This document shows, piece by piece, positions 120 to 64,000 of a DNA stretch of 64,000 nt. Under the pieces are notes generated by a model. That model did not search any database. It was not told where the DNA came from and saw only the letters and a program-made list of their open reading frames with translations. The stretch lies in assembly GCA_937920475.1 (NCBI GenBank), contig CALEUX010000052.1:1-64000 (forward strand), read 5' to 3'. The translations under genes were made by a program, and so were the position numbers. Origin of the DNA: an uncultured Marinilabiliaceae bacterium. Lineage in GTDB: Bacteria; Bacteroidota; Bacteroidia; Bacteroidales; Marinilabiliaceae. The first letter of the stretch is position 1. Each line of letters begins with the position of its first letter.

Positions 120-1910
120 CTAATGTCGTTGTCTCGGCGTATAAGTGGTATGCAACAACTCGTGCGACTTATGTCCGAGAGGCTCTCCCAAGAATTCGCG
201 GTAGAGCTGAACTACTTCAGGATTGTCATGCGATTTGCGAATGGTTTTATGAGCGTCTTCAGAATAAATGGCAGCACTTCGTTTTTTCCGAATTTCGAGT
301 GATGTTGGTATGGGTTGGCCACCGCCACCTAAACAACCACCCGGACAGGCCATTATCTCAATAAAATGATACGAAGCTTCGCCACTCTTAACCTTTTGCA
401 TAATGGTATTGGCATTGGATAACCCATGAGCCACACAGGTTTTAACCTCTACCCCTTCTAAAAAACTCCATTCAGGCAAGGCATTTTCTATTTTAATAGT
501 GGCTTCACGTACGCCTTCCATTCCCCGAACAGGTGTAATATTCAAGCCTTTAAATGGCACTTCCCTGCCGGTAACCACCTCGTAAACAGTGCGCAGCGCA
601 GCCTCCATAACACCACCGGTGGCACCAAAAATAACTGCAGCACCAGAACTCTCACCCATAAAACTGTCGTAATCGGCATCGGGCAACGATTTAAAATCAA
701 TACCGGCCTGCTTAATCATTAGCGCCAGTTCACGGGTGGTTAAAACATAATCAACATCCTGATAACCGCTGGCACGCATTTCCGGACGATTGGCTTCAAA
801 TTTTTTGGCCGTACAGGGCATTATGGAAACGCTCACCATATTGGCCGGGTCGATATCCATTTTTCGGGCATAAAAAGTTTTAACCAAAGCTCCAAACATT
901 TGCTGCGGCGATTTGGCGGTTGAAACATTACCCAAATACTCGGGAAAAGCATGTTCTATAAACTTAACCCATCCGGGCGAACAACTGGTTGTCATCGGCA
1001 ATTTCACATCTTCCCTTTTATCTTTAATAGCCAACTTTAACCGGTTCAGAAGTTCGTGTCCTTCTTCAATAATGGTAAGGTCGGCAGTAAAATCGGTATC
1101 TAAAACAGCATTAAACCCCATGCGCCGTAAGGCGGCTACCATTTTTCCGGTTACAATTTCGCCGGGGTCCATACCCAATGCTTCACCAAGGGCAATTCGC
1201 ACCGCCGGAGCAGTTTGCACCACTACAAACTTTTTATCGTTGTAAATTGAAGCCCAAACCTCATCGATGTAATTCTTCTCTACCAAGGCACCTGTGGGAC
1301 ATCGGTTAACGCATTGTCCGCAGTTGGTGCATACAACCTGATAAAATGGCTTTTCGAAAAAGGTAGAAATCTTCATTTCCTTGCCCTTATGTGAAACTGC
1401 AAGGGCTCCAATACTTTGAAGTTCCTCACAGGTTCTTACACAGCGCTGACAGCGAATACATTTGGAGTCGTCCTTGATGATGGATGGCGAATAATAGTCG
1501 ATGGTATAATTTTTAAACGGTACCAGATTGATAAAGCCGTTTTCACCAATAATGTATTCGTGCGATAATTCCTGCAGTTCACATTTCCCATTTTTGTAGC
1601 AGGTAGTACATTCGGCGCGGTGTTCCGATATAAGCAATTCAATAATTTGTTTGCGGGCCGTTCTAACCTTTATACTATTGGTAAAAATCTCCATTCCATC
1701 AGATACCGGCATGGCACAGGCAGGAATAAGCCGATCCCAGCCAACATGGTCAACTACGCAAACCCGGCAATTACCGGCAACGCATAAATCTTCGTGATGA
1801 CACAAGGTTGGAATCCGTATGTTAACCGCTTTAGCAGCTTCCAGAATGGTAGCACCCCGGTTTACACTAACGGAAATATTATCGATTTTTAAAGAAACTT
1901 GTTCGTTCAT
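120..1910 (-). CDS. hydA: [FeFe]-hydrogenase catalytic subunit HydA (group A3 type)
   Basis: Cytoplasmic hydrogen-forming or -consuming subunit of a trimeric NADH-linked hydrogenase, 596 aa. Domains in order: plant-type [2Fe-2S] (C37, C48, C51, C65), a His-Cys [4Fe-4S] site (H97, C101, C104, C110), two [4Fe-4S] sites (CIRCQRCVRTC at 151-161, CTNCGQCVNRC at 194-204), then the H-cluster domain with TTSCSPGWVKF (C310), MPCTAKKFE (C366) and MACPGGCLGGGGQP (C522, C526). All H-cluster cysteines are present. The C-terminus is the usual short-subunit tail and has no extra [2Fe-2S] domain as in Thermotoga HydA. It is last in hydC-hydB-hydA, 21 bp after hydB. Family assignment is firm; whether it bifurcates electrons depends on HydB, which is atypical here. 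Confidence 0.96.
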   Translation of the reverse strand: MNEQVSLKIDNISVSVNRGATILEAAKAVNIRIPTLCHHEDLCVAGNCRVCVVDHVGWDRLIPACAMPVSDGMEIFTNSIKVRTARKQIIELLISEHRAECTTCYKNGKCELQELSHEYIIGENGFINLVPFKNYTIDYYSPSIIKDDSKCIRCQRCVRTCEELQSIGALAVSHKGKEMKISTFFEKPFYQVVCTNCGQCVNRCPTGALVEKNYIDEVWASIYNDKKFVVVQTAPAVRIALGEALGMDPGEIVTGKMVAALRRMGFNAVLDTDFTADLTIIEEGHELLNRLKLAIKDKREDVKLPMTTSCSPGWVKFIEHAFPEYLGNVSTAKSPQQMFGALVKTFYARKMDIDPANMVSVSIMPCTAKKFEANRPEMRASGYQDVDYVLTTRELALMIKQAGIDFKSLPDADYDSFMGESSGAAVIFGATGGVMEAALRTVYEVVTGREVPFKGLNITPVRGMEGVREATIKIENALPEWSFLEGVEVKTCVAHGLSNANTIMQKVKSGEASYHFIEIMACPGGCLGGGGQPIPTSLEIRKKRSAAIYSEDAHKTIRKSHDNPEVVQLYREFLGEPLGHKSHELLHTTYTPRQRH

Positions 1911-1931: not shown

Positions 1932-3110
1932 TCAATAAATCATTTCTTCTCTGAAGTTTTCAACAATGGAGCTGAAAGAGTTAGCCACCGATTGACCCAG
2001 ACCACATTTGGCGGTTAAACGCATGGTTTCTGCCAGGTCCAAAAGTTTATCCAGATATGCAGAAGATTTCTCGCCGCGTTTTACAGCTTCAATACCAATA
2101 AGCAGTTGCTGGGTGCCAACACGGCAGGGTGTACACTGTCCGCAACTTTCTTCCACAAAGAAATCGAGGTAATTATGTAAAACATTGTACATGGAACGCG
2201 ATGAGTTAAAAATCATCATAGAGCCTCCGGTTGGCAGCGAAATACCTGTTAACTTACCCTGGTATCCAATTATGGTTTTCTCAAATTTTTTACGGGGAAC
2301 ACAAAATCCAGAAGCTCCGCCCACCTGAACTGCCTTGGCATCGCCATCGCCAAAGTCATCAACAAACTTCTGAAGCGTCATGCCAAATTCCAACTCATAA
2401 ATACCCGGTATGGGCGTATCGCCCGATACCGAAAAAACTTTACTACCGCGGCTGTCTTTTACGCCCAAATCGCGAAACTTCTCAGGGCCATATTTAAAAA
2501 TTGAAAAAGTATGCGCCAATGTTTCAACATTGTTAACCACTGATGGCTTATTCTTATAACCCTTACTGGTTGGATAAGGCGGTTTGTTGCGCGGTTCACC
2601 CCTTTTTCCTTCCATACTCTCGAACAGAGCAGTTTCTTCGCCACAGATGTAAGCACCGGAGCCCATAAAAATATCGACCTTGAAATCCAATTCATGTTTT
2701 TTCAACAATTCATGAAACCGTTCAATCGATTGCTGTAATTCCGGAACCAAAAACTTGTATTCGCCTCTAAGGTAAATGTATCCCTGCCGGGCCCCAATTA
2801 TTCGTCCACATATTGCCATGCCGCACAACACCTTATGGGATACCCTTGAAAGAATCTCTCTGTCTTTAAAAGTCCCGGGTTCGCCTTCATCGGCATTACA
2901 GATTACAAATTTTTCGTCTGATTGAGCCTCAGATGTTAACTTCCACTTTAACCCGGTAGGAAAACCGGCTCCACCACGACCTTTTAAACCTGAGATAATT
3001 AAATCGTTTATAATATCTTCATCCGGACGAGCTAATGTTTGCGCCAGAACGACTTCGGCATCCTGCTCATCCTTAAAAATCAGGTCTAACCTTTGAAGAT
3101 TCCTGGTCAT
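1932..3110 (-). CDS. hydB: NuoF-like hydrogenase subunit HydB, core-only form
   Basis: Binds FMN and NADH and passes electrons to HydA. Visible motifs are the flavin loop GRGGAGFPTGLKW, the NADH site NADEGEPGTFKDRE, GAYICGEETALFESMEGKRG and the cluster ligands ESCGQCTPCRVGT plus a later Cys in TAKCGLGQS. The reading frame is open to 3299 but overlaps hydC and lacks family similarity there, so I take the ATG at 3110 (MTRNLQRLD), giving 392 aa. Bifurcating HydB/HndC proteins are near 600 aa, with an N-terminal thioredoxin-like [2Fe-2S] domain and a C-terminal 2x[4Fe-4S] domain. Both are absent here, and the next gene starts 21 bp on. This resembles the beta subunits of NADH-only hydrogenases; that is inference. 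Confidence 0.92.
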   Translation of the reverse strand: MTRNLQRLDLIFKDEQDAEVVLAQTLARPDEDIINDLIISGLKGRGGAGFPTGLKWKLTSEAQSDEKFVICNADEGEPGTFKDREILSRVSHKVLCGMAICGRIIGARQGYIYLRGEYKFLVPELQQSIERFHELLKKHELDFKVDIFMGSGAYICGEETALFESMEGKRGEPRNKPPYPTSKGYKNKPSVVNNVETLAHTFSIFKYGPEKFRDLGVKDSRGSKVFSVSGDTPIPGIYELEFGMTLQKFVDDFGDGDAKAVQVGGASGFCVPRKKFEKTIIGYQGKLTGISLPTGGSMMIFNSSRSMYNVLHNYLDFFVEESCGQCTPCRVGTQQLLIGIEAVKRGEKSSAYLDKLLDLAETMRLTAKCGLGQSVANSFSSIVENFREEMIY

Positions 3111-3249
3111 ATTGTATAGTTTAAAAATGGTAATAGATTTTGCGTAATCAATTGATGTAGTCAGCCATACAATGAAATATGGGTGCAGATTATTCAAATA
3201 TTCCAACCAGTTTAATCTGCTTTCATAAGCTGAATCATATAACCTGCTG

Positions 3250-3732
3250 TCAGTTAAGAGGCATGTGCTCCTTAATGCGGTATTCGTTGATAATTTCACG
3301 CACTTTCTCAGGCGTTAAATCGGTGTGAGGTGTATCATTAATCAGCATGGCCGGGCCTTTATGGCATTGGCCCAAACAGTTGGTTTCCTTTAATGTAAAA
3401 AGGCCATCTGATGTCGTTTGTCCAGGTTTAACTTTTAATATGTCTTCCAATTCCTGAAGAATCAGATTCTTTCCATGCATCATGCAGGTTATGGTTTTGC
3501 ACAACCTGATTATGTACTTGCCGCTTTTACCCGATTCAAGAAAACTATAAAAGGTGGCAGTGCCATAAACATGCGCTGCAGAAATGTCCAGTTCTCTGGC
3601 TACTTCCACCATGGCCTCATCGGTTAAGGCATGATAGTTCTCATAAACACCTTGTAAAATAGGTAACAACGATTCTTTCGACCGTCCATACCTGTCGGCA
3701 AGATCACGAATGGTTTCCTGAATTTTTGCCAT
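3250..3732 (-). CDS. hydC: NuoE-like hydrogenase subunit HydC
   Basis: Thioredoxin-fold [2Fe-2S] subunit, 160 aa, homologous to complex I NuoE and HndA. The four ligands are in the expected arrangement: C78 and C83 in CKTITC, C119 and C123 in CLGQC. The N-terminal helical bundle (LLPILQGVYENY, ALTDEAMVEVARELDI) is typical. It is first gene of the hydrogenase set. A 22-bp palindrome lies 71 bp upstream of the start. A 139-bp gap separates it from hydB. Confidence 0.95.
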   Translation of the reverse strand: MAKIQETIRDLADRYGRSKESLLPILQGVYENYHALTDEAMVEVARELDISAAHVYGTATFYSFLESGKSGKYIIRLCKTITCMMHGKNLILQELEDILKVKPGQTTSDGLFTLKETNCLGQCHKGPAMLINDTPHTDLTPEKVREIINEYRIKEHMPLN

Positions 3733-3803: not shown

Positions 3804-3825
3804 CAATATGATATTTATCATATTG
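3804..3825. promoter_or_regulatory. 22-bp perfect palindrome upstream of hydC (candidate operator)
   Basis: CAATATGATA (3804-3813), spacer TT, TATCATATTG (3816-3825): ten-base arms without a mismatch, 71 bp before the hydC start in the 190-bp gap after the DUF1858 gene. The size and symmetry fit a dimeric regulator site such as an Rrf2-type or CRP/FNR-type protein. It is not followed by a T-run, so it does not look like a terminator. The regulator is unknown. Confidence 0.55.
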
Positions 3826-3922: not shown

Positions 3923-4450
3923 TTACTCCCTTTTAATGTAGCTCATAATAGTATCACCATCGTTCCTGCTGAACGTGGAAAACCCTTTTTTCCGGAGCAT
4001 ATCTATAATCGGAACCGGTACAAATGGGGTTTTAAGTTCCATTATTTGATGCCCATCCAGTTTTTGGGCTAAAGCTATAATCTCGTTCATGGGGCTTTCT
4101 CCCCGGTTAATAATATCTACGGCATTAAAGCGGATGGAGACTAATTCGGGGTGGTACCATTCTGGAATAACAGCAGACATATAATCCTGATTATCTGTAC
4201 TGATACCCAATTCATCTTCCTGACCAACAGCTTTTCGCAAGCGTAAAACCAACTCGTTAATATTCACATTTCCAGCTCCGGCAGCTTGTTGCAGGGTTGC
4301 TACTTTCGCAATGGTCTTTCGCAATACAGGATGTTTCAATTTCGAGAATGCAGGAGTCATATCAATGAGCAACGACTCAAGTTGGGGATAACTGTCGAGC
4401 AGCTCCCCAACTTTAGTTTTGGGTGTAATAATCAGTTTGTGTTCGCCCAT
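3923..4450 (-). CDS. DUF1858/DUF2249-type protein
   Basis: About 175 aa from the ATG at 4450; a TTG three codons upstream is possible. The N-terminal part (ITPKTKVGELLDSYPQLESLL, then PAFSKLKHPVLRKTIAKVA) is a DUF1858-type domain without its usual Cys pair. The C-terminal 70 aa (IRFNAVDIINRGESPMNEI, then FVPVPIIDMLRKKGF) resemble the TusA/DUF2249 fold. It follows the DUF438-hemerythrin-PAS gene by only about 10 bp, so the two are probably co-translated. Function is unknown; association with redox or nitric oxide response proteins is inferred from this pairing. Confidence 0.75.
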   Translation of the reverse strand: MGEHKLIITPKTKVGELLDSYPQLESLLIDMTPAFSKLKHPVLRKTIAKVATLQQAAGAGNVNINELVLRLRKAVGQEDELGISTDNQDYMSAVIPEWYHPELVSIRFNAVDIINRGESPMNEIIALAQKLDGHQIMELKTPFVPVPIIDMLRKKGFSTFSRNDGDTIMSYIKRE

Positions 4451-4460
4451 ACCGCTCAAT

Positions 4461-5696
4461 TTACTTAGTCGAAGAATAATTCAGCAACCGCTGCTCTCCC
4501 TCCAGTTTACGCAGTTTGGTCAGGTCTTGCGTAAATTCAACAGTCCCCAGATATTCGCCCTGCTCACCACGCATGGCAAAATATTCAATATAAATAAATC
4601 TACCCTGAAAATTTATCCAGAATGCGGCACTGCTTTCGCGGCCACTTTTAAAATCATCAATAATTTTATCGACAATATGAACACTTCCCGGTGGATGACA
4701 CATACGCACATCTCGTCCCAAAATGGCCCGGTTACGCGAAAAAATCCGGTTTGGACCATGAGAATAGAACTTAACCTTATCGTTTTTATCAACAAAAGTA
4801 AGGTCGATGGGCAGGGTTACAAAAAGCGATGCCAATTCGTCAACTGAAAAGCTGCCTGTTGGTAACCGTATTGTTCCATCAAAGCCATATTGAACATCGC
4901 TTGTGGCCATTCCTTCGGGCCGCCATTTATCCTGAGGGTCGTATAAGCAAAATCCATACTCAGGAGTTTGCTGTAAAACCTGGTACCATTCCTCATCGGA
5001 AAGCGTATCCATACTCATGGGTAGCAAAATCTCTTCCTCCTTCATTATCATATCCAAAACAGCCTGAATTGCAGGTTTTAAAACCACACCCACCACCATG
5101 GAAATCTCTTCTATTGTAACCCCTTCGTGAACACTTACGGCTTCAATGGCATTTTTTAACAACACCCTTGTTTCGTCATGCTTGCCCCACATAACTTTAG
5201 GAGGGCCATCAATTCCATGCTGTTCCAGAAATGGAAAAAGCAGATATTCCTTGCGTAAATAGTGCTTATCAACATCCATCAGGCTGTTAAAACGTCCATG
5301 CACATCAATCAGCCATTTTTTTAATTCATCGGGTTTAACCTGCCCAAGTTTCGCAAACAATGTTTTTAACTCGTCGGCTACTTTCTCAAGTTCCCGGTTC
5401 TCTTTTTTAAAAGTGTCAACCGGATGCCCCGGTGGTACTTCTTTGGCTCCGCTTTGGTCGATATGGCCATCCAAAACTTCGGTGTGAATATCGCACAAAC
5501 GCAAAACCTCTTCTACAGGTAACCCTTCAGAGATTAATTCCTGCTCCACTTCAACCACCTCGTCGTATGGAATGCTTTTTAGTAATTCGGTCAGGCGTTT
5601 GCGCACCTGTTCCGGCGCTTGCCCTTCGTGAAGCTCCAGAATCATGTGTTTCAGAAGCTCCTTCCGTTGTTGGGAATTGTTTATCAGTTCACTCAT
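4461..5696 (-). CDS. DUF438 / hemerythrin / PAS protein (copy 1)
   Basis: 411 aa, soluble. Residues ~1-70 are a DUF438 domain (LLKHMILELHEGQ, IPYDEVVEVEQELISEGLP). Residues ~90-245 are a hemerythrin-like four-helix region with candidate Fe ligands (GHPVDTFKKEN, HYLRKEYLLFPFLEQHG, MWGKHDETR, MKEEEILLP). Residues ~285-400 are a PAS domain with the family signature CHPPGSVH. Such proteins are thought to sense or buffer oxygen, NO or iron-sulfur damage, but this one has no output domain, so the partner is probably the DUF1858 protein directly downstream. It is divergent from a paralogue at 5952. Confidence 0.85.
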   Translation of the reverse strand: MSELINNSQQRKELLKHMILELHEGQAPEQVRKRLTELLKSIPYDEVVEVEQELISEGLPVEEVLRLCDIHTEVLDGHIDQSGAKEVPPGHPVDTFKKENRELEKVADELKTLFAKLGQVKPDELKKWLIDVHGRFNSLMDVDKHYLRKEYLLFPFLEQHGIDGPPKVMWGKHDETRVLLKNAIEAVSVHEGVTIEEISMVVGVVLKPAIQAVLDMIMKEEEILLPMSMDTLSDEEWYQVLQQTPEYGFCLYDPQDKWRPEGMATSDVQYGFDGTIRLPTGSFSVDELASLFVTLPIDLTFVDKNDKVKFYSHGPNRIFSRNRAILGRDVRMCHPPGSVHIVDKIIDDFKSGRESSAAFWINFQGRFIYIEYFAMRGEQGEYLGTVEFTQDLTKLRKLEGEQRLLNYSSTK

Positions 5697-5865
5697 AGTC
5701 TATAAATTTAACTTAATGATTTACTAAACATCAATCACATGCTGCAACAACTTGCACTTAATGATTTAATTTACTAATATTTAACACCAATAGCAATACC
5801 GGAATTAAGGCATTAATGTGTTATCAAGTTTTTAAAGAAAACAATCCAATTGGTGAAATGTTACG

Positions 5866-5891
5866 AATAATGGATGTTTTTATCCATTATT
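5866..5891. promoter_or_regulatory. Perfect 10-bp inverted repeat upstream of DUF438 copy 2
   Basis: AATAATGGAT (5866-5875) and ATCCATTATT (5882-5891) with a 6-bp spacer GTTTTT. It sits 61 bp before the chosen start of the plus-strand DUF438 gene, in the 255-bp divergent region with copy 1. It fits an operator and differs from the hydC palindrome. The rest of this intergenic region shows no other clear element. Confidence 0.45.
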
Positions 5892-5951
5892 TTGTCAAGA
5901 TTTAACATTATTATTAAAAAGGTCGTATTTTTATGGTCTAAACCCATTCAT

Positions 5952-7145
5952 ATGTCAAAATTAATCAACACACCAGAAGAGCGTTTAAATCAACTGATTT
6001 CCTTTGCAAAACGAATGGTTAGCGGCGAAAACGGTGTTGAATTATACCATAAATACCGTTCTGTTACCGATAAGGTAACACCCACCGAAGCCATGGAAGT
6101 TTTAGATGTGCTTTTAAAAGAAGGCATTCCGGCCGAAAAGCTAAAAGCTGCCATTGGTAAAATTCTCAATATTTTCTACAAATCCTTATCGGCCTTTGAA
6201 TGGAAAAAGCCCGAATCTGGTCATTTTATTCATTATCTGATGCTCGAAAACCGTGAAGTGGAAAAGATAATGCATGCATTAAAAGCCCTATCAAAAAATG
6301 CCTTTGCATCAAAAAAACCGGAAGATTACCAAATCCTTAAATCAAAGCTTCAGGAACTAAAACCTTATGAATTACATTACATAAAGAAGGAAAACATCCT
6401 GTTTCCTTACATTGAGCAGGCATTTCCGGGTTACAGATGTTTATCCATTATGTGGTCGTTTCACGATGATTTCCGGCGAGGCTTAAAGGTGATAGACGGG
6501 CTTCTTAACGAACCAATTATTGATAACAGGAAACTAAGCAATGAACTCGGAAAACTGTTTTTTACAGTGCTGCCAATTATCTTTCGTGAAGAACATATCG
6601 TGTTTCCTGTAGCTTTACGAGCTATTTCTGATGAGGCCTGGAAAGCCATGATGGCCGAGAGTTTTGAAACAGGCTGGTGTTACATCCCACAACCGGAAAT
6701 AACTTATTATCTGAATAATAGTAATTCCAACAATACTGATTTAATCGACCTCGGCACCGGAATCCTAACCGCCAGTCAAATTAAACTTCTTTTAAATACC
6801 ATTCCGGTTGATGTTACCTTAATTGATGAAAACGATGAGGTTCGGTATTTCTCGGGTGGAAATCACCGTATTTTTCATCGTTCAGCGGCCATTATTGGCC
6901 GTAAGGTACAAAATTGCCACCCACCTGAAAGTGTGCATATGGTAAATCAAATTGTGGATGCTTTTAAATCGGGAACGCGCGAACATGCCGACTTCTGGAT
7001 TACTTTAAAAGGGAAATTCCTGCACATCCGTTATTTTGCTGTACGTAACGAACAGGGAACATATAAAGGCACTTTGGAAGTTAGTCAGGATGTAACTGAG
7101 ATAAGAGCATTGCAAGGAGAGCGACGACTTCTTGAATGGGAATAA
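5952..7145 (+). CDS. DUF438 / hemerythrin / PAS protein (copy 2)
   Basis: 397 aa from the ATG at 5952 (MSKLINTPEERL), which aligns with the start of copy 1; the open frame runs 26 codons further up, through the palindrome. It has the same order as copy 1: DUF438, hemerythrin-like helices (LHYIKKENILFPYIEQ, MWSFHDDFRRG, FREEHIVFP) and a C-terminal PAS with CHPPESVH. The PAS domains are clearly homologous across their length, the N-terminal parts much less so, so this is an old duplication. It is probably an independently regulated sensor or redox-protection protein; the ligand is unknown. Confidence 0.85.
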   Translation: MSKLINTPEERLNQLISFAKRMVSGENGVELYHKYRSVTDKVTPTEAMEVLDVLLKEGIPAEKLKAAIGKILNIFYKSLSAFEWKKPESGHFIHYLMLENREVEKIMHALKALSKNAFASKKPEDYQILKSKLQELKPYELHYIKKENILFPYIEQAFPGYRCLSIMWSFHDDFRRGLKVIDGLLNEPIIDNRKLSNELGKLFFTVLPIIFREEHIVFPVALRAISDEAWKAMMAESFETGWCYIPQPEITYYLNNSNSNNTDLIDLGTGILTASQIKLLLNTIPVDVTLIDENDEVRYFSGGNHRIFHRSAAIIGRKVQNCHPPESVHMVNQIVDAFKSGTREHADFWITLKGKFLHIRYFAVRNEQGTYKGTLEVSQDVTEIRALQGERRLLEWE

Positions 7146-8552: not shown

Positions 8553-8843
8553 GTTTTTGAAATATTATATGTACTTTTTTTGTCAACCTGTATTATGCCA
8601 AATGTTAATGCATTGTATAAAAATATAAAAAAAAGCTATGGAGCGTTAGTTAAACCTGATTGCAAAAGGTGGACATATTGACCAAAAAAGAGTGTTAATT
8701 TGTTTAGCTTTTAAAAATATTATAAACCCTGGTTTTATTTAAAATCAATTTAAATAAAAAATCAAATAATAACCTTCGATTATAAAATTTACAAATGGAA
8801 GAATTCACTTTTTTTTCGAAATTTGAACTATAAAATAAACCGG
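8553..8843. other. AT-rich intergenic region, nothing recognised
   Basis: About 290 bp between the divergent oxidoreductase and AlbA_2 genes. I see no ORF, repeat, tRNA or strong dyad. It must contain promoters for both sides, but none matches the TTTG/TAnnTTTG consensus well. Confidence 0.5.
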
Positions 8844-9506
8844 GTGAGCAAGTATTTAAAAAACTTAATAGCTGAGGGCGAGCATCAAACACAGGATTTT
8901 AAATTCGCCATTAACGATTCGCGCAAAATAGCACGAACTCTGGCGGCTTTTGCCAATACCGATGGTGGCCGGCTTCTGGTTGGAGTTAAGGATAATGGCC
9001 GAATAGCAGGGGTTTCATCGGTTGAGGAGTACTATATGGTTGAGGCAGCTGCCAATATGTATTGCAAACCTCCTGTAAAATTTGAAACCAATACCATTCA
9101 CTTTGAGGGTAAAACCGTATTGGAGGTTATTGTGCCCAAAAGCGTTGATAAGCCCCATAAAGCGCCAACTAAAGATGGCTCCTATAAAGTATATGTAAGA
9201 GTTAACGACCAGAATATTTTGGCCAATGGAATTTTAATAAAAGTTTGGGCACGACAGAAGAAAAAAGAGGGTACCTTACTTAAAATTACCCAAGCCGAAA
9301 ATATTCTTCTCAACTATTTATCTGAACATCCAACTATTACACTTTCAGGGTTTCAGAAAATAGCAGGAATAAAAAGATGGACTGCCGAGCAAATCATTAT
9401 TAATCTATTGGTTATCAACGTTCTTTCCATGCAACTTACCGAAAACCAATGCACCTACAGTTTGAAACCCAAGAAGAGTAAAATTGATTCATCTAAAGCA
9501 CTTTAA
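8844..9506 (+). CDS. AlbA_2/Schlafen-type (AAA_4) domain protein
   Basis: About 220 aa. The N-terminal ~120 aa contain the AlbA_2 motif set: EHQTQDFKFAINDSRKIART, then AFANTDGGRLLVGVKDNGRI, then VPKSVDKPHKAP. The C-terminal region (ILLNYLSEHPTITLSGFQKI, WTAEQIIINLLVINVL) looks like a winged helix. Such proteins are putative nucleic-acid-binding regulators. No ATG fits; GTG at 8844 or TTG at 8823 is the start, and I prefer GTG because it abuts the conserved region. It is transcribed alone and its role is unknown. Confidence 0.8.
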   Translation: MSKYLKNLIAEGEHQTQDFKFAINDSRKIARTLAAFANTDGGRLLVGVKDNGRIAGVSSVEEYYMVEAAANMYCKPPVKFETNTIHFEGKTVLEVIVPKSVDKPHKAPTKDGSYKVYVRVNDQNILANGILIKVWARQKKKEGTLLKITQAENILLNYLSEHPTITLSGFQKIAGIKRWTAEQIIINLLVINVLSMQLTENQCTYSLKPKKSKIDSSKAL

Positions 9507-56093: not shown

Positions 56094-56984
56094 TTAATTA
56101 CCAATTTTCATAACCAACGGATTAAAGGCCTTTGAAAAAACCATAACCTTGTCGCCTTCGGTTAAATCGGCAATGTCGTTTTCGTATGCAGTTACTTTAA
56201 TTATTTGATTCATGCCTGTAACAACAGTTAGAAGATAGAATGTATCCTGCTTTTGAATTTTTACAATAGTTCCTGCAATTTGCACCTTACCGCTAATTTG
56301 ATTGTTAATAAAAACATCATCGGGACGCCCAAATCCTTTCGCTTTTCCGTTATCGATAAGCATAACTTTTTGCGCCAGTCGAAATACCTCGGCAAGGTCG
56401 TGACTAACCAGCATAGTTGTTGCCTTATAAATTGAATGAGCTTTTAATATTTCATTTTGCAGGGCAGTTCTAATACCTGCATCGAGAGCCGATAAAGGTT
56501 CATCGAGCAAAAGGAATTGAGGTTTACGAGCCAAAGCACGAGCCAAAGCCACCCGTTGCTTCTGACCGCCCGAAAGCTTTTCAGGCTTTCGGTTAGCAAA
56601 TTCTGTGAGGCCAAAGTTATGCAGCAATTCATCAATAAATGTCTTATCCTTATATTTTTGACCATAAGCCACATTTTTAAAAACAGCCATGTTCGGGAAA
56701 AGCGCATAATCCTGAAAAACAAAACCAATATTACGTTGCTGCGGGGGCATGTTAATCCTATCGTTAGAGCTGTACCATACGGAATTTCCAACTTTAATAA
56801 TTCCTTTATCGGGCGAAGTTAATCCGGCAATCATACGTAATATTGTAGTTTTACCGGCGCCCGACTCGCCAAACAACACAACCAACTCGCCAACCGGGAT
56901 TGATGTTTGAATCTTCAACTGCATTCTACCATAAGCAGAAACCAGCTCTTTTTGAACATCAATATAAATTATATCATTTTCCAT
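56094..56984 (-). CDS. modC: Molybdate ABC transporter ATP-binding protein
   Basis: 296 aa. Walker A GESGAGKTT, signature LSGGQKQR, Walker B FLLLDEPLSALD, then a C-terminal TOBE segment (~235-296) that binds oxyanion for feedback. Overlaps modB by 16 bp. Energises molybdate import for nitrogenase and other Mo enzymes. Confidence 0.93.
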   Translation of the reverse strand: MENDIIYIDVQKELVSAYGRMQLKIQTSIPVGELVVLFGESGAGKTTILRMIAGLTSPDKGIIKVGNSVWYSSNDRINMPPQQRNIGFVFQDYALFPNMAVFKNVAYGQKYKDKTFIDELLHNFGLTEFANRKPEKLSGGQKQRVALARALARKPQFLLLDEPLSALDAGIRTALQNEILKAHSIYKATTMLVSHDLAEVFRLAQKVMLIDNGKAKGFGRPDDVFINNQISGKVQIAGTIVKIQKQDTFYLLTVVTGMNQIIKVTAYENDIADLTEGDKVMVFSKAFNPLVMKIGN

Positions 56985-57649
56985 GAGTCGCTCCTTCTGT
57001 GAATAGTATAAATAAGCGTAAGAATAACAAACGATATTATAAATAAAGTAAATGCGTATTGATTAGCCATATCGAAATTTAGAGCCTGCACCTCATCATA
57101 AATGGCAATTGAAGCAACACGAGTTTCGCCCGGCATGTTACCCCCCACCATAAGAATAATACCAAACTCGCCAATGCAATGAGCAAAAGTGAGCGCAATT
57201 GCCGTAATTAACGATGGTTTAATACCCGGCAATAATACCCTGAAAAAAGTTGTTGTTTTAGACTTTCCCAAGGTGTAAGAGGCTTCGCGCAGACTAACCG
57301 GCACGGCTCTTAGTCCGTTAGTTAGAGGTTGCACCATAAATGGAAGGCTAAAAACTACAGAAGCCAAAAGAATTCCCTCGAAAGTGAATGCCAAATGCAC
57401 ATCGAACCATTGACTTAATAATCTCCCGAACCAAAAATTGGGACTGTAAGCTACCAATATGTAATATCCTATAACCGACGGCGGCAAAACAAGCGGCATA
57501 CTTACCAAAGCTTCGAGCACCGGTTTAAACCTGAACCGGGAGTAGGCCATGAAATAACTCAGCGGCAGTCCGATTATCAGCAAAATTGATGTGGTATAAA
57601 CCGCAAGTTTCGCTGTTAGGATGAGTGTTTGTATGAATGGGGTTGGCAT
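56969..57649 (-). CDS. modB: Molybdate ABC transporter permease
   Basis: 226 aa, five or six membrane helices, with the EAA loop LREASYTLGKSKTTTFFRVLLPG region (LREASYTLGKS and FFRVLLPG) that docks on ModC. ModB hallmark PLVLPPSVIGYYIL is present. Confidence 0.93.
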   Translation of the reverse strand: MPTPFIQTLILTAKLAVYTTSILLIIGLPLSYFMAYSRFRFKPVLEALVSMPLVLPPSVIGYYILVAYSPNFWFGRLLSQWFDVHLAFTFEGILLASVVFSLPFMVQPLTNGLRAVPVSLREASYTLGKSKTTTFFRVLLPGIKPSLITAIALTFAHCIGEFGIILMVGGNMPGETRVASIAIYDEVQALNFDMANQYAFTLFIISFVILTLIYTIHRRSDSWKMI

Positions 57650-57663
57650 GTTTTAGTTTTGAG

Positions 57664-58149
57664 TTATGAGTTTGATAGTTTATTGTTGAGAGTTGATAGT
57701 TGAGGGTTGAGGGTTGATAGTTGAGGGTTGATAGTTGATAGTTGAGGGTTGGGTTGTATTAGGGATATTTCGTTGGCTTTTATGAGTGCTGTAACCGAAG
57801 TTCCTTCTGTAAGTTCGAGTGCGTTAACCGCCCGTGTTGTAATGGCAGAATACAAAGTTTGTTCACCAAAGTTTAATTCAACCAAACTAAGCAGTTCGCC
57901 TCGACTTATTGATTTAACAATACATGAAAATCTATTACGCAGACTTATTTTGCCGAAAAGATTAACTGCGATAGAAAGCTCAGACTCTTTAAAAACCGCA
58001 AGTGCCTCAGCATTTGGGACTAACCATGGCGGCAAATCATCGGCATCGATAAGAAGAGCCGACATTTTTGTATTGTCTGATTCTAAATCGACAAGAACAA
58101 CACCGCCTGATGTTGTGATGCTTTTTATTATGGCTGGAATTTTATTCAT
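57664..58149 (-). CDS. Double-TOBE molybdate-binding protein with a heptapeptide-repeat tail
   Basis: 161 aa. TOBE-like half ~5-65 (IPAIIKSITTSGGVVLVDLE) and a clearer one ~68-133 (SLRNRFSCIVKSISRGELLS, NALELTEGTSVTALIKANEI). It likely buffers or senses molybdate beside ModABC. The last ~25 residues repeat NPQLSTI/L units and are encoded by a 7-bp DNA array that elsewhere is intergenic, so the natural domain end is near residue 133 and the tail is acquired. Lies between modA and modB. Confidence 0.8.
   Translation of the reverse strand: MNKIPAIIKSITTSGGVVLVDLESDNTKMSALLIDADDLPPWLVPNAEALAVFKESELSIAVNLFGKISLRNRFSCIVKSISRGELLSLVELNFGEQTLYSAITTRAVNALELTEGTSVTALIKANEISLIQPNPQLSTINPQLSTLNPQLSTLNNKLSNS
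57673..57752. repeat. Heptamer array inside the 3' end of the double-TOBE gene
   Basis: Plus strand units of gttgaga / gttgata / gttgagg follow each other with a strict 7-bp period. Three units make 21 bp, so the minus-strand reading frame yields a 7-residue repeat. Same unit family as the arrays at 61575-61745 and 63054-63160. Confidence 0.8.
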
Positions 58150-58195
58150 AATAGAGTCTGTTTTAAGTTGGTGTTTGTCGTAGAATGACTATAAA

Positions 58196-58942
58196 CTACC
58201 AGTTACACACGAATCCGTATTTTTCCAAGATATTAATAGCGTGATGTGAAGAGACAAACTTTGCGAAATCGTGAGCAATAGCGTTCTCTTTGGCACGATT
58301 TAAAATAACAAAGCCCTGCAAAAGCGGATTGTGCGTATCAGCGTCAATTAAACAATAATTACCTCTGTTTTTCATGTTGGGAGCAAGTACCAGCGAAAGC
58401 GCTAAAATTCCAAATTGCGCATTTCCGGTAAGGCAGAACTGAGCAGCTTGTGAAATATTTTCACCATAAATAAGCTGAGGCATAATATTATCATAAATTC
58501 CATAATGTTTTAATGTTTCCACGGCTCTTTGACCGTAAGGAGCATGCGAGGGATTTGCAATGGCGATGCGGGCTCGCGGGTTTTCTGTTAAAACGCTTAT
58601 TCCTTTACTCACGTCTATAGAACTGCTCCATAAAGCAATTCGACCGATGGCATACAATACCGGTTCGTGAACAGTTAATCCATCCTCATGCAATTTTTGC
58701 GGATAGGCAATATCGGCCGAGAAGTAGATATCATAAGGCGCTCCGCCGTTTAAAATTTGAGTGAAAGCATTACCCGACGAACCGTAGATAACTTCTAAAT
58801 CGGCATTTGGGTGACTTTTTTTGTATTCAGCCACAACTTCGTCCATTGCAAAACGCAAATCGGCAGCAGCTGCTATTCTTACTTTTTGGGAGTATGATGC
58901 TGAAATAATAGTCAGGAATAATAATGTAAATATGGTCTTCAT
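58196..58942 (-). CDS. modA: Molybdate-binding protein ModA
   Basis: 248 aa with a cleavable signal (MKTIFTLLFLTIISASYSQ) and no lipobox Cys. Oxyanion-binding features: AAAADLRFAMDEV, YGSSGNAFTQI, DIYFSADIAYP, and ANPSHAPYGQRAVE. Periplasmic receptor that hands molybdate to ModBC. Confidence 0.93.
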   Translation of the reverse strand: MKTIFTLLFLTIISASYSQKVRIAAAADLRFAMDEVVAEYKKSHPNADLEVIYGSSGNAFTQILNGGAPYDIYFSADIAYPQKLHEDGLTVHEPVLYAIGRIALWSSSIDVSKGISVLTENPRARIAIANPSHAPYGQRAVETLKHYGIYDNIMPQLIYGENISQAAQFCLTGNAQFGILALSLVLAPNMKNRGNYCLIDADTHNPLLQGFVILNRAKENAIAHDFAKFVSSHHAINILEKYGFVCNW

Positions 58943-59917: not shown

Positions 59918-61129
59918 TTAATACGCCAACCAATCGTTTTCAATTCGAGAAAGGGTTGTTCGCATAACCAATGCAGGATGGGACAACGTTAAGTTCTTTT
60001 CTCCTTGAATTTGATTGTAATACTCCAAAATCTCCGATTCGGAAATTGCCCGCTTTAATTTAATTGATTGCCGTTTAACCTGTTCAAGAATTTCATTGCA
60101 TTCGCTTTCCGAAACTTCGATATTTAAGCACTTAAAGAAGTGCCTTATGCTTTCCCCTCCGCTGTGTTTTCCAAACACAAAAGGAAGCTCTTTACTACCA
60201 ATTGCATCTGCATCAATCAACTGGTACGATTTTCTGTGGCGAAGGATTGACGAAGTGTGAATCCCACTCTCGTGTGCCATGGCCAGATTTCCGGTAATGG
60301 GTTTAGAATCGGAAATTGGGCGTTTAGAAGCCTTAGCCACGTATTGCGACAGCTTAGAAAAAACTTTGGTATTGATACCTGTTTTACAGTTTTCGCCATA
60401 TTCAAAAGCCATAACCACCTCTTCCAAAGCAGCATTACCGGCGCGTTCTCCCAAACCGTTAACAGTAACACTAAAACTCTGAACACCTGTTTCGAAGGCA
60501 GCCAGCACATTGGCAGTGGCCAAACCTAAATCGTTATGGGCATGAAATTCCAAGGGAACATCGGGATGCACCAGAAAAATGCCATTAAAAAGTTTTGATG
60601 TTCCCCGGGGAGTTAAAGTTCCAACGGTATCGGCAATCCTTATTCTGGAAGCACCAAAATCAAGAGCTTTACCAATAAATTCGTTCAGAAAACCTATTTC
60701 AGCTCGTGATGCATCCTGTGCCCCAATTGTTACGAAGCGGAACTCATTCAATGCCATTGATACAATTCCTTTCATAGAATCCATCACCCAATTGTGGCTC
60801 TTGTTCATGCTGTTAAGCAAGATGGTTGAAACCGGAAACGATATGTGTACCCCATCGGTGCCACATTGCACGGCAGCTTTAATATCATCCTTATTAACCC
60901 GGCACCAGGCTGTTGTAATAAAACCAAAGCCTGCAGAAATAAGTGCTTTTATGTCAGCCACCTCAGATGCTCCCATAGCAGGTGTACCGATTTCCAGTTC
61001 GGGAATTCCTGCATCGCTCAACATGCTGCATATAGCCAACTTATCGTTGAGATTAAAAACTACACCGGGAGCTTGTTCTCCATCGCGCAGGGTGGTATCT
61101 AAAAAACTAGGCTTAAAATTTTCATGCAT
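59918..61129 (-). CDS. nifV: Homocitrate synthase
   Basis: 403 aa. Catalytic start DTTLRDGEQAPGVVF, metal-binding HxH in EFHAHNDLGLATAN and GLGERAGNAALEEV. Condenses acetyl-CoA with 2-oxoglutarate; homocitrate is the organic ligand of FeMo-co. The nifB/nifN context favours NifV over isopropylmalate or citramalate synthase. Confidence 0.92.
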   Translation of the reverse strand: MHENFKPSFLDTTLRDGEQAPGVVFNLNDKLAICSMLSDAGIPELEIGTPAMGASEVADIKALISAGFGFITTAWCRVNKDDIKAAVQCGTDGVHISFPVSTILLNSMNKSHNWVMDSMKGIVSMALNEFRFVTIGAQDASRAEIGFLNEFIGKALDFGASRIRIADTVGTLTPRGTSKLFNGIFLVHPDVPLEFHAHNDLGLATANVLAAFETGVQSFSVTVNGLGERAGNAALEEVVMAFEYGENCKTGINTKVFSKLSQYVAKASKRPISDSKPITGNLAMAHESGIHTSSILRHRKSYQLIDADAIGSKELPFVFGKHSGGESIRHFFKCLNIEVSESECNEILEQVKRQSIKLKRAISESEILEYYNQIQGEKNLTLSHPALVMRTTLSRIENDWLAY

Positions 61130-61150
61130 AGCAATTTAGCTTTAAAAAGA

Positions 61151-61261
61151 GTCTTCGGGGATGCCATTGAGCTGTTGTTTATAAAAACCAGGCAACACTA
61201 CCTAAGCCCAACCCTACCATGAAAAAAGGGCTTTAAGCACCACCCGAAGACAATTTTCGGG
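61151..61261. repeat. Inverted repeats in the fdx-nifV gap
   Basis: GTCTTCGGG (61151-61159) pairs with CCCGAAGAC (61243-61251), and CCCGAA/TTCGGG (61243-61248, 61256-61261) form a local hairpin right after the ferredoxin stop. The two structures share an arm, so they are mutually exclusive. No T-run follows. Confidence 0.45.
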
Positions 61262-61570
61262 TTAGTTTGATACCAAATACTTCTCGCATGAAAGACCATC
61301 TTCCAGGGCATCCAATATTTCGTCGATGGCTGCTTCGTTTTCCACTTTTCCGTACCATAAATTGTTGGGATGGATAACGATGACAGGCCCTTCGGAGCAA
61401 ACATTAAGGCATCCGGTGGATGATACGGCCACATCGAGACCGCGGTCGGTAGCCTCTTCGGTAATGTATTGTATCAATCCGGTGGCACCTTTTTTATTAC
61501 AAGCCCCCTGGGCATCGCCGGCAACACGAAATGAGTTGCATACTAAAATGTGATAGGTTGGTTTTTTCAT
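61262..61570 (-). CDS. nif-associated thioredoxin-fold [2Fe-2S] ferredoxin
   Basis: 102 aa. Cluster ligands are in CNSFRVAGDAQGAC near the start and TGCLNVCSEGP near residue 60. This is the Clostridium pasteurianum/Azotobacter FdI-type [2Fe-2S] ferredoxin found in nif clusters, implicated in FeMo-co assembly or electron supply to nitrogenase. Lies between nifB and nifV. Confidence 0.9.
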   Translation of the reverse strand: MKKPTYHILVCNSFRVAGDAQGACNKKGATGLIQYITEEATDRGLDVAVSSTGCLNVCSEGPVIVIHPNNLWYGKVENEAAIDEILDALEDGLSCEKYLVSN

Positions 61571-61574
61571 GGCT

Positions 61575-61745
61575 GTTTAGTTTAGTTGATGAGTTTTAAG
61601 TTTAGAGTTTATTGTTTAGAGTTTAGAGTTTAGAGTTGGTTGTTGGTTGTTGATAGTTGATTGTTTGGGGTTTTGAGTATTATGCCTTCTGACCTTGGAA
61701 CCTTCTTACCTTCCAACCATCAACTCAAAACTCCCCAACTAATGA
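61575..61745. repeat. Heptamer array with inverted half, nifB-fdx gap
   Basis: tttagag/gtttaga and gttgata units (61600-61665) run one way; caaccat-caactca-aaactcc units (61712-61740) run as the complement, so the array can fold back on itself. Fills the 195-bp gap. Confidence 0.7.
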
Positions 61746-61765
61746 CTGAACACTGATAACTGATT

Positions 61766-63037
61766 TCAGGCACATCCCTGGGCGTTTCCTTTGCAGTTTC
61801 TGCCGCAACGGAAGGCGTCTTGTTTGGCGATGCTTCGGATGGGTTTATGGTTGTAAATACCATCCAAACCCTCGTCGATAAGGCCAGTCATTTCGATGAT
61901 GCGAACCCCGCAACTGCCGATGATGGCTTTCGGGTTTTCGCCCACACCTGAAACCAACAGTGCACGGCAATCCTTTAAGAGGCGAGCCATATCGAGCCAG
62001 CGGTTATCGCCTGTACCAGCGGGTGGTGCTTCGCGCTCTTCCACAAACTGAAACCCTTTGGGCGATTTGCGGAAGATGTAAAAGGCTTTGGTTTCGCCCA
62101 AATGCATATTCACCAACAGTCCTTCACGGGTGGCCACAGCCACGTAGGGTCGCTCCTCTTCGGTGAATGGTTCTCGTTTTGCAAATTCTTTTAGCATCAC
62201 ATGCGTATCATTTAAATCTTTACCCAATAAACCGGCAGCATCGGCACGACAACGGGCACAGTGCGACATCAGCTTCAGATATTTAGATGCTTCCATGCGT
62301 GTTTTAAAAACCATTTTAGAATCAGGCTGCACTATGTTCTCAAAAGCGGTTCCTTTGGCGGCAATCATGGGGATACAATTTATCACATCGGCACCCAATG
62401 CTGCGCAAACTCTTGCCACCTCCCCAATGTGATGGTCGTTGATGCCCGGCATTATTACCGAATTAATTTTAACCGTGATGCCTTTCTCCTTTAGAGCGGG
62501 AATGCACTGCAACTGCTCACGCAACAGCACTTTGGCACCCTCTTCTCCCCTATACACCTTTTTATTGAAGCGCACCCATTTATAAACTTTCGCCGTAACG
62601 GCAGGGTCGATGGCATTGATGGTTATGGTGACATGCGACACGCCAATTTTCGCCAAATCATTGATATACGGATAGAGGTTTAGCCCATTGGTTGAAACAC
62701 AAAAGAGTTTATCGGGATAAGCTTCTTTGATGCGCTGCATGGTTTCCAACGTTTCATCGGGGTTGGCAAACGGGTCGCCAGGCCCGGCAATTCCCACCAC
62801 CGACAGGTTGTCCAGCTTATCGTCTAACGCCCTGAAATACTCATACGCCTGAAAAGGTTTCAGCACCGTGGAGGTAACCCCCGGCCGGCTTTCGTTAACG
62901 CAATCGTACTGACGGTTGCAGTAGTTGCACTGTATGTTGCAATTGGGAGCAACCGGTAAATGCACCCTGGCGTGAGAATGCCTCGCTTCTTCATCGAAAC
63001 AGGGATGGGCTACGGATGTGTTGGTTTCGTTTATCAT
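61766..63037 (-). CDS. nifB: NifB radical SAM enzyme fused to a NifX-like domain
   Basis: 423 aa. Start SVAHPCFDEEARHSHARVHL, radical-SAM Cys in CNIQCNYCNRQYDC, GPGDPFANPDET, and the second cluster region CARCRADAAG. Residues ~290-423 form a NifX/NafY-like domain (YVAVATREGLLVNMHLGE, IIGSCGVRIIEMTGLIDEG). Fuses two [4Fe-4S] clusters with SAM-derived carbon into NifB-co, the core of FeMo-co. Ends CGRNCKGNAQGC. Confidence 0.95.
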   Translation of the reverse strand: MINETNTSVAHPCFDEEARHSHARVHLPVAPNCNIQCNYCNRQYDCVNESRPGVTSTVLKPFQAYEYFRALDDKLDNLSVVGIAGPGDPFANPDETLETMQRIKEAYPDKLFCVSTNGLNLYPYINDLAKIGVSHVTITINAIDPAVTAKVYKWVRFNKKVYRGEEGAKVLLREQLQCIPALKEKGITVKINSVIMPGINDHHIGEVARVCAALGADVINCIPMIAAKGTAFENIVQPDSKMVFKTRMEASKYLKLMSHCARCRADAAGLLGKDLNDTHVMLKEFAKREPFTEEERPYVAVATREGLLVNMHLGETKAFYIFRKSPKGFQFVEEREAPPAGTGDNRWLDMARLLKDCRALLVSGVGENPKAIIGSCGVRIIEMTGLIDEGLDGIYNHKPIRSIAKQDAFRCGRNCKGNAQGCA

Positions 63038-63053
63038 GGCGTTTCTTTATTAG

Positions 63054-63160
63054 TTTAGGGTTTAGGGTTTAGGGTTTAGGGTTGAGAGTTGTCTCAGATT
63101 CCAACCATCAACTCTGAACTATCAACTATCAACTCCGAACTTTAAACTTTGAACTTCGAA
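63054..63160. repeat. Heptamer array with inverted half, nifN-nifB gap
   Basis: Four consecutive TTTAGGG units at 63054-63082, then gttgaga, and after a short spacer caactct-gaactat-caactat-caactcc-gaacttt-aaacttt-gaacttc units to ~63160. The second half is the complementary class, so the whole can form a long imperfect hairpin. Confidence 0.75.
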
Positions 63161-63161
63161 C

Positions 63162-64000
63162 TTATATATACTTATACCCTACCGGGCTGTTTTCCTGTTT
63201 GTATTCGATGAGGGCGTTTACAATGCGGTCGAACAATTCCTGGGTGCCACGATAACCGATGTGGTGGATGCGTGATGCGCCAAAGCGGTCGTGAATGGGA
63301 AAGCCGGCGCGAACCAAAGGAATTTTCATCTCCCGGGCGATGTAGTAGCCTTTGCTGTTGCCTATCATGATATCAGGCTTAAGCTCCTGCATGATTTCAC
63401 GCATTGAGGCAAAGTCGGAGCCATCGGCAATGCAGATATCGGGACCGGCAATCGTCTCAAGGGTGCTTTTCATTAACCCGCTTGCAGCACCCGAGGCTAC
63501 CAAAACCGGCACCATTCCAATCTCAAGAAGAAAAGCCGCCAGTGCAATCACAAAATCCTCTTCGCCATAAATCACGGCACGTTTGCCAAACACATATTTA
63601 TGGGCATCCACGTAAGCATCAATCAGGCGGCCGCGCTCCTTTTGGTGTTTATCGGGCATCGGACTTTGAGCTATACCACTCAGCAGGTTAAAGAATTTAT
63701 CACTGACATCTATGCCAATTGGAAAACCAAGCTGGTGGTTCGTTACAAACATTTTTTCCTGTAGCCACTGTCCGGCACTTACTATTGAGTTTCCAATTGT
63801 ACTTTTTCCACCACGATTAAATACAGTCCCAAATTCTATGGTTGCTTTTGCAGAGCCGGTCATCTCAAGCTCAGAAATGGTAGTCCCACCCGAAGGAACC
63901 AATTGATACTCGCGGGTGTGCACATTGTCGAGTGTTTCTGAATAGTCGGGAAAAACAGTGGCAGGTATATGAAAATCGATGCAAAGTTCTTTCAGATACC
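63162..64000 (-). CDS. nifN: Nitrogenase FeMo-co scaffold NifN, 3' part
   Basis: About 278 codons of the C-terminal part; the frame is open through the window edge, so the start is outside. NifN features: PDYSETLDN near the edge, SGGTTISELEMTGSA, GIDVSDKFFNLLSGI, KRAVIYGEEDFVIALAAFL, LVRAGFPIHDRFGASRIHHI. With NifE it receives NifB-co and matures it. Upstream of nifB in the same direction. Confidence 0.92.
   Translation of the reverse strand, partial: YLKELCIDFHIPATVFPDYSETLDNVHTREYQLVPSGGTTISELEMTGSAKATIEFGTVFNRGGKSTIGNSIVSAGQWLQEKMFVTNHQLGFPIGIDVSDKFFNLLSGIAQSPMPDKHQKERGRLIDAYVDAHKYVFGKRAVIYGEEDFVIALAAFLLEIGMVPVLVASGAASGLMKSTLETIAGPDICIADGSDFASMREIMQELKPDIMIGNSKGYYIAREMKIPLVRAGFPIHDRFGASRIHHIGYRGTQELFDRIVNALIEYKQENSPVGYKYI

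Follow-up and report, generated by a model that had tools for sequence, protein, structure and literature searches.

What do two DUF438-hemerythrin-PAS proteins do beside an [FeFe] hydrogenase, and with which of their neighbors do they work? The question is raised by a 64,000-nucleotide stretch of DNA from an uncultured Marinilabiliaceae bacterium (GenBank assembly GCA_937920475.1, contig CALEUX010000052.1, positions 1 to 64,000; hereafter, the window). From right to left, the locus consists of copy 2 (5952..7145, plus strand, 397 amino acids), a divergent promoter of 255 bp, copy 1 (4461..5696, minus strand, 411 amino acids), a small partner gene (3923..4450, minus strand, 175 amino acids), a gap of 190 bp, and the hydrogenase operon. 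An earlier note on this DNA had placed the three open reading frames (ORFs) at these positions, where we find them too. By alignment with relatives, the start codons are most likely ATG 4450 for the partner, rather than TTG 4459, and ATG 5952 for copy 2, rather than the start at 5874; the partner thus begins 10 nucleotides after the stop codon of copy 1, on the same strand. Our analysis indicates that copy 1 and its partner probably form a cytoplasmic two-protein module that belongs, together with RIC, to an Rrf2-controlled regulon for damage by nitric oxide (NO) or to iron-sulfur (Fe-S) clusters. The narrower statement, that the two are partners and members of an NO/Fe-S-stress regulon, we hold with good confidence, and in this lineage both the partnership and the regulon link are well supported.

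Copy 1 belongs to the DUF438-hemerythrin-PAS_10 family, with Pfam matches to DUF438 (E 2.5e-23; 82.2 bits, cut-off 25), Hemerythrin (E 8e-15; 55.9 bits, cut-off 25.3), and PAS_10 (E 4e-25; 89 bits, cut-off 22.1), and its structural model matches the solved structure of PF0695 from Pyrococcus furiosus (3cax) over 318 residues (Z 24.9, root-mean-square deviation 3.3, 36% identity). The partner consists of DUF1858 followed by DUF2249. The first domain is matched in the 178-residue ORF well above the cut-off (E 1.3e-15; 57.6 bits, cut-off 32.2); the second falls short of the threshold in the window protein itself (E 0.016) but reaches E ≤ 0.01 in 37 of the 40 members of the partner alignment. The predicted C-terminal half of the partner adopts a TusA/TsuB fold (Z 9.6–8.4), and the predicted model also matches 2fi0 (Z 9.8). 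TusA depends on a cysteine for its function. The partner, which resembles the sulfur carriers TusA and TsuB (YeeD) in the fold of its C-terminal half, contains no cysteine at all; TusA-like sulfur transfer is ruled out on this ground, and persulfide carrier chemistry is not expected of it for the same reason. A kinship of DUF1858 with ScdA_N was also considered, and the profile probability of 46 is no more than suggestive.

The earlier note had described copy 1 as coupled to a DUF1858 protein and had proposed that the co-occurrence of DUF438 and DUF1858 be analyzed, and the coupling recurs in most relatives examined. We compared 61 related genomes (numbered G; G000 is the genome of the window, 76.7% complete), 14 with a full-length copy 1 and 47 others, as well as 80 copy 1 loci (numbered L), the closest of 499 relatives, of which 19 are shorter than 9 kb. 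An adjacent DUF1858 protein is present in all 14 genomes with a full-length copy 1. Among the 80 loci, in which neighboring genes were sought with tblastn, the partner was detected in 62, at full length in 42 and as the DUF2249 half only in 20; 61 partner ORFs were clustered, 60 of these could be placed, and every one of the 60 is the next gene on the same strand as copy 1. In 4 further loci (L029, L035, L045, and L064), copy 1 is itself fused to a DUF2249-like end, and the two fusions checked against Pfam gave E-values of 4e-4 and 2e-3, below the Pfam cut-off. The pieces are also joined in other arrangements, namely DUF2249-hemerythrin-PAS_10 in L148 and hemerythrin-PAS_10-DUF1858 in Prevotella nigrescens. 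The pair extends across phyla: Lactococcus, Limosilactobacillus, and Latilactobacillus have plasmids with DUF1858 directly before a DUF438 match, the DUF438 gene itself being tabulated for Lactococcus only. This combination of adjacency and fusion supports the view that copy 1 and the DUF1858/DUF2249 protein act as one functional unit. Searches of open-licence PMC literature turned up no title or abstract on the DUF438-DUF1858/DUF2249 pairing, whereas published precedents cover single pieces.

The regulon link comes from the divergent promoter of copies 1 and 2, which contains an inverted repeat (5866..5891, arms of 10, loop of 6), a predicted Rrf2-type operator common to the RIC-Rrf2 promoter. 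A pattern made from this box and two sites in the RIC-Rrf2 promoter has only three zero-mismatch sites in the 3.35-Mb assembly, one in the promoter of copies 1 and 2 and two before the RIC-Rrf2 genes; allowing one mismatch adds four sites, every one of them within an ORF. Because a search with the genome's own pattern is partly circular, a matrix was built from the RIC promoters of other genomes; with the own genome left out, it gives the window box 11.8 bits, a score reached by 3 of 200 single-base shuffles. A scan of 209,089 bases of the own genome, with its own sites included in the matrix, gave 14 sites of at least 11 bits, the three best being the window box and the two RIC boxes. RIC was searched for in the copy 1 genomes and in G024. 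Boxes of at least 11 bits precede copy 1 in 7 of the 14 genomes (G000, G008, G006, G020, G030, G036, and G017), and G017 has boxes upstream of RIC, NorB, and copy 1, the RIC box being one of the training sites. Promoters of copy 2 reach 11 bits in 3 of 21 cases, all three adjoining copy 1. The predicted operator would thus be shared with RIC, a known NO-defense gene of the same genome.

The Rrf2 protein encoded beside RIC in the own genome carries a Cys-x6-Cys-x5-Cys motif and belongs to the superfamily (80.5 bits, cut-off 73.3), with 30 bits against the NsrR equivalog (cut-off 182). It fits no named equivalog, and NO, iron, and Fe-S status are therefore all possible signals.

Between these signals, the gene context favors NO, which in the earlier note had figured merely as a test condition. 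The 80 loci contain NorB in 21 cases, RIC in 11, YgbA_NO in 7, NrfA in 4, and Hcp in 3, at least one of these five markers being present in 35 loci. Of 24 control stretches, one has an NO marker, and this control set is biased, because L160 has a RIC-like match and both L159 and L160 were originally fetched for DUF1858 matches. At the level of whole genomes, NorB occurs in 7 of 14 genomes with copy 1 versus 7 of 47 others (p 0.011), and NorB or Hcp in 13 of 14 versus 28 of 47 (p 0.024), by a statistic that ignores kinship. Rrf2 regulators form a single-linkage cluster represented in 30 of the 80 loci (four members Pfam-checked), and tblastn with one member matches in 10. PepSY_TM proteins occur in 21 of the 80. 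A layout that recurs, exemplified by L042, is Rrf2, ferredoxin (Fer4), norB, cupin, copy 1, a small ORF, and PepSY_TM, the 91-residue ORF in the partner position of L042 having no Pfam match. L153 (6581-10054) encodes a 1157-residue fusion of PepSY_TM, ferredoxin, DUF1858, DUF2249, and an NMT1-like part directly behind Rrf2 and norB, and matches to these markers follow one another in identical order in L154. Outside this sample, a DUF1858 gene appears in an NnrR regulon table for Bradyrhizobium (PMC6710368).

Several observations weigh against this reading. At two mismatches, the operator pattern finds 42 sites, versus 14 for its reversed form. In 7 of the 14 copy 1 genomes, no box of at least 11 bits precedes copy 1, the best value being 7.6 bits in G014 and those of G002, G058, G015, G001, G060, and G025 lying at chance; two of the genomes that do have a box, G020 and G030, are close kin. 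Both the pattern and the RIC training sites were chosen by eye with the window box already known, and the shuffles were of single bases. The own Rrf2 protein fits the RirA, SUF-regulator, and IscR models better than NsrR, all far below their cut-offs, and it may accordingly respond to iron or Fe-S status instead of NO. Of the 80 loci, which are the closest of the relatives, 45 show no NO marker of the five in the fetched DNA, the NorB enrichment is uncorrected for kinship, and the incomplete own genome has no NorB or Hcp match. In two Lactobacillus-group plasmids, the neighbors concern Fe-S assembly (DUF59-type) rather than NO. Finally, L057 does have divergent [FeFe]-hydrogenase-type, HndA-like, and HndC-like genes near copy 1, and the likeness of copy 1 to Ddes_1165, considered below, was drawn from domains and published residue numbers.

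From the features that can be read in the DNA, that is, the pairing, the fusions, the neighborhood, the shared box, and the ligand changes described below, we infer a repressor, a signal, a complex, a cellular location, and a chemistry as follows. A repressor of the Rrf2 type, holding an Fe-S cluster, would sit on the repeat in the promoter of copies 1 and 2 and on the two like repeats before RIC, and NO or cluster damage would release it, whereupon copy 1, the partner, and copy 2 would be made. Copy 1 would act with the partner as one unit, in which its atypical metal site (H145, H173, E220, and perhaps H91), its CHPP-bearing PAS domain, or both would meet NO or damaged iron. The DUF2249 domain would then carry the consequence on, through iron or electron transfer to clients, through repair of clients, or as a protein-protein signal. 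As to which chemistry the module performs, RIC-like protection or repair is our tentative first choice, with signaling ranked only slightly lower.

Both copies contain the CHPPxSVH motif in the PAS domain, as the earlier note had pointed out. In copy 1, it begins with C333-H334-P335-P336 (4689..4700, minus strand), residues that do not vary among the 55 proteins of our main alignment (A1; 51 copy 1-like and 4 copy 2-like), and in copy 2, the CHPP motif, identified in the sequence and by alignment, lies at 6915..6926 on the plus strand; among stand-alone copy 2-like proteins, the last proline and SVH are variable. The model matches a PAS fold, and heme and non-heme PAS structures score alike (Z about 9.5–11.7).

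The ligands of the hemerythrin-like domain fared less well. For the comparison, we take H84, H204, and E208 to be ligand positions of YtfE. The other three are H129, E133, and H160, according to PMC5701242. In the alignment with RIC, three of the six canonical positions are retained, with H145, H173, and E220 of copy 1 equivalent to H129, H160, and E208, and the other three are replaced, K149 standing at E133, M216 at H204, and E99/N100 at H84, the least certain match. Copy 2 agrees with copy 1 at these positions except for an isoleucine in place of M216. The mapping uses a MAFFT alignment and the shared spacing to the FP/LP helix ends, because the profile comparison of the hemerythrin segments of copies 1 and 2 with RIC yielded nothing beyond weak local matches (probabilities of 36 and 6, respectively). 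H91, H145, K149, E150, H173, and E220 are all invariant in A1. Beyond this alignment, H91 is variable in stand-alone copy 2-like proteins, and H145 is glutamine in L140 and L146; in the wider copy 2 set, the K149 position is glutamine in L147 and isoleucine in L144; and H173 is replaced by aspartate in L148 and in those members from Bacillota, Fusobacterium, and Prevotella in which the motif was found. Given the three replaced positions, a canonical diiron center in copies 1 and 2 is unlikely, and the six-ligand set of diiron hemerythrins and RIC was rejected at the level of the alignment. The candidate ligands of the earlier note therefore stand for one half of the site and fall for the other.

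Several known systems resemble the module in part. The archaeal PF0695 shares with copy 1 the hemerythrin-like and PAS_10 layout and the CHPP motif; it keeps a glutamate (HYNREE) at the YtfE E133 position, unlike the lysine of copies 1 and 2, and its record is titled "uncharacterized protein." RIC, YtfE, and ScdA have in common with copy 1 a hemerythrin-like fold, a neighborhood, and the predicted promoter box. The differences are that RIC carries an ScdA_N domain with CCGG and all six diiron ligands, whereas copy 1 has DUF438, PAS_10, and three of the six ligand positions, and that copy 1 has a separate cysteine-free partner. Pfam finds no ScdA_N match in copy 1, copy 2, or the partner, and copy 1 scores 14.9 bits against the RIC equivalog (cut-off 204.7), far outside RIC/YtfE membership. 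The Desulfovibrio proteins Ddes_1165 and DVU2590 combine hemerythrin and PAS domains like copy 1 and are NO- or nitrite-induced. For Ddes_1165, PMC5701242 reports induction by NO, proposes the protein as the equivalent of YtfE, and gives the ligands H234, E239, and H262, whose spacing (5, 28) equals that of H145, E150, and H173 in copy 1, the same peculiarity in both; Ddes_1165 has about 89 more residues before the site.

Instead of a sensor, copy 1 and the DUF1858/DUF2249 protein may be a RIC-like enzyme for Fe-S or iron centers split over two polypeptides, a possibility that we rate highest among the alternatives, if still short of even. The company and the promoter box shared with RIC and the NO induction of Ddes_1165 speak for it, as does the presence of DUF1858 beside or fused to FeS_assembly_P (DUF59) in Lactobacillus-group plasmids; according to PMC4982691, SufT architecture S6 (n = 4) likewise combines DUF1858 with FeS_assembly_P. 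Against such an enzyme stand the missing cysteine of the partner, the three changed diiron positions, and the weak similarity between DUF1858 and ScdA_N. Furthermore, the own genome has RIC too, and copy 1 and its partner are hence no simple RIC replacement. A separate observation concerns Lactobacillus crispatus, where an FeS_assembly_P (DUF59)-DUF1858 fusion (L230, 3421-3999) lies directly before a DUF438-hemerythrin-PAS gene and after nrdD/nrdG.

A somewhat less probable alternative is an NO or redox relay, in which the PAS and hemerythrin-like domains sense and the DUF1858/DUF2249 protein transmits to a regulator or to a membrane electron-transfer protein of the PepSY_TM type. Copy 1 has a PAS domain and no enzyme domain found by Pfam, DUF2249 or DUF1858 is fused behind the PAS domain in several of the proteins noted above, and PepSY_TM is both a recurrent neighbor and a fusion partner of DUF1858-DUF2249. 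A precedent for the architecture is DrpB of Thermus thermophilus, a DUF1858-DUF2249 protein that affects the transcription of nitrate respiration and is tied to nitrogen oxides (PMC6282519); unlike the partner, DrpB has two DUF2249 domains and works with DrpA, a protein with DUF2249 only, and the part of that paper available mentions no DUF438 protein alongside. A relay of this kind is disfavored by the lack of any DNA-binding or kinase domain found by Pfam in copy 1 or the partner, and by the neighborhoods, in which no recurrent regulator was seen except Rrf2, which has its own three-cysteine motif. The earlier note's statement that the copies lack an output domain agrees with this, Pfam finding none in copy 1 or copy 2. 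As a bolder and rather speculative extension, the DUF438-hemerythrin-PAS protein and its DUF1858/DUF2249 partner might constitute a widespread, unnamed, phosphorylation-free NO relay from Bacteroidota to Bacillota, in which a non-canonical iron site with three retained ligands and the CHPP PAS domain would read NO and a cysteine-free TusA-fold protein would pass the state to a NO-reductase/PepSY-ferredoxin electron chain or to Fe-S clients.

The hydrogenase next door suggests another function, namely that of an O2 or redox sensor in which a diiron hemerythrin and a PAS domain sense O2 and signal to the operon via DUF1858. The operon lies on the same strand as the pair, which is 190 bp upstream of hndA, and comprises an HndA/NuoE-like subunit (3250..3732, minus strand; 2Fe-2S_thioredx, E 1.4e-45), an HndC/NuoF-like subunit (1932..3299, minus strand; library profile matches, with an ORF start that is probably too early), and a group A6 [FeFe] hydrogenase (120..1910, minus strand; NF040763, 875 bits, cut-off 765), neighbors that we place outside the module. 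A simple scan found no terminator in the gap between the partner and hndA, and read-through may occur. In Alkaliflexus (L050/L122), the order of copy 2, divergent from copy 1, the partner, hndA, hndC, and hydA, is kept, and L057 (3-4361) has HndA- and HndC-like genes, divergent from a gene for a 619-residue Fe_hyd_lg_C protein, upstream of copy 1.

The wider comparison does not bear this out. Only 2 of the 80 loci, L050 (group A6) and L057, have a hydrogenase-type gene in the vicinity of copy 1; the divergent gene of L057 was missed by the strict filter used (40% identity, 250 residues), and among the matches scanned, L068 has only a ferredoxin-type HoxU/NuoG-like subunit. Across the 61 genomes, HydA6 shows no association with copy 1, scoring above the cut-off in 10 of the 14 that have a full-length copy 1 and in 31 of the 47 others (p = 1.0). 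Three genomes that are 97–99% complete (G020, G030, and G036) retain the pair without an over-cut-off HydA6, two of them likewise with a divergent copy 2, and in G024, only fragments of copy 1 and the partner remain (L152, 9187-9785), about 5 kb away from hydrogenase genes that are still full length. In addition, the inverted repeat upstream of hndA in the window, located by a repeat scan at 3804..3825, differs from that of copies 1 and 2; its core, ATGAT-N4-ATCAT, recurs upstream of hndA in Alkaliflexus (G008) and is not among the repeats listed for G024, a hint that the hydrogenase operon is controlled separately. With the diiron ligands only half conserved as well, the hydrogenase sensor is set aside on neighborhood, co-occurrence, and the G024 case as improbable; the adjacency looks incidental, and the hydrogenase would be at most one client of the module. 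Of the sensor envisaged in the earlier note, a diiron-plus-PAS protein passing its state to the partner near an oxygen-sensitive hydrogenase, the unit of copy 1 and partner survives, the diiron part is weakened, and the tie to the hydrogenase is lost. Elsewhere in the same genome (G000:C31; L164, 8281-11952), another group A6 [FeFe] hydrogenase is encoded together with HndA- and HndC-like subunits; a scan of the 450 bases upstream of it listed no inverted repeat. A decaying or unused module in this lineage is least credible of all, for although G024 has fragments only, neither window copy is interrupted or truncated, the two retain the family-invariant residues, and their promoter box is shared with RIC.

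Copy 2 completes the picture of the locus. Pfam recognizes Hemerythrin (E 4.6e-10) and PAS_10 (E 5.3e-30) and no DUF438 at E ≤ 0.1; a profile-profile comparison with the N-terminus of copy 1 (probability 96.8, E 2.4e-10) is what points to a diverged DUF438 at the N-terminus of copy 2, so that the three-domain description given earlier for both proteins applies in full to copy 1 and, for DUF438 of copy 2, through the profile comparison only. The two had also been called duplicated. They are paralogues, open and full length, but a recent origin is ruled out by their identity of 34% and by their placement in two clades parted by one 100/100 branch in a tree of 46 rows (24 copy 1 and 22 copy 2), which makes them, by sequence comparison, old paralogues. 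Nearest to copy 1 in the tree are proteins of Marinilabiliaceae, that of Alkaliflexus with 82% identity. Copy 2-like proteins occur alone, without copy 1, in other genomes of the order; a conserved neighborhood away from copy 1 was sought in 12 stand-alone loci and dismissed, the sole recurring neighbor being found in three loci of one genus.

The evidence on copy 1 and its partner ties three Pfam families without assigned function, DUF438, DUF1858, and DUF2249, into one unit through operon, fusions, and a shared promoter box, and offers a concrete stress, NO or Fe-S damage, in which the module may serve. It corrects two easy misreadings of the locus, as a hydrogenase sensor and as a canonical diiron site, and it raises the biochemical question of which metal, if any, is held by a hemerythrin fold with half its ligands.

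Elsewhere in the window, a lone Schlafen/AlbA_2-domain protein (8823-9506) is encoded on the right-hand side of copy 2, with a GFO_IDH_MocA protein in between. A small protein (57664-58149) ends in a repeated NPQLSTLN-like tail, judged by eye to be a tandem DNA repeat entering the gene, beside ORFs that by eye resemble a molybdate transporter (56094-58942). At the right edge of the window, NifV-, NifB-, and NifE/N-like ORFs (59918-63923, also by eye) suggest a nitrogen-fixation cluster.

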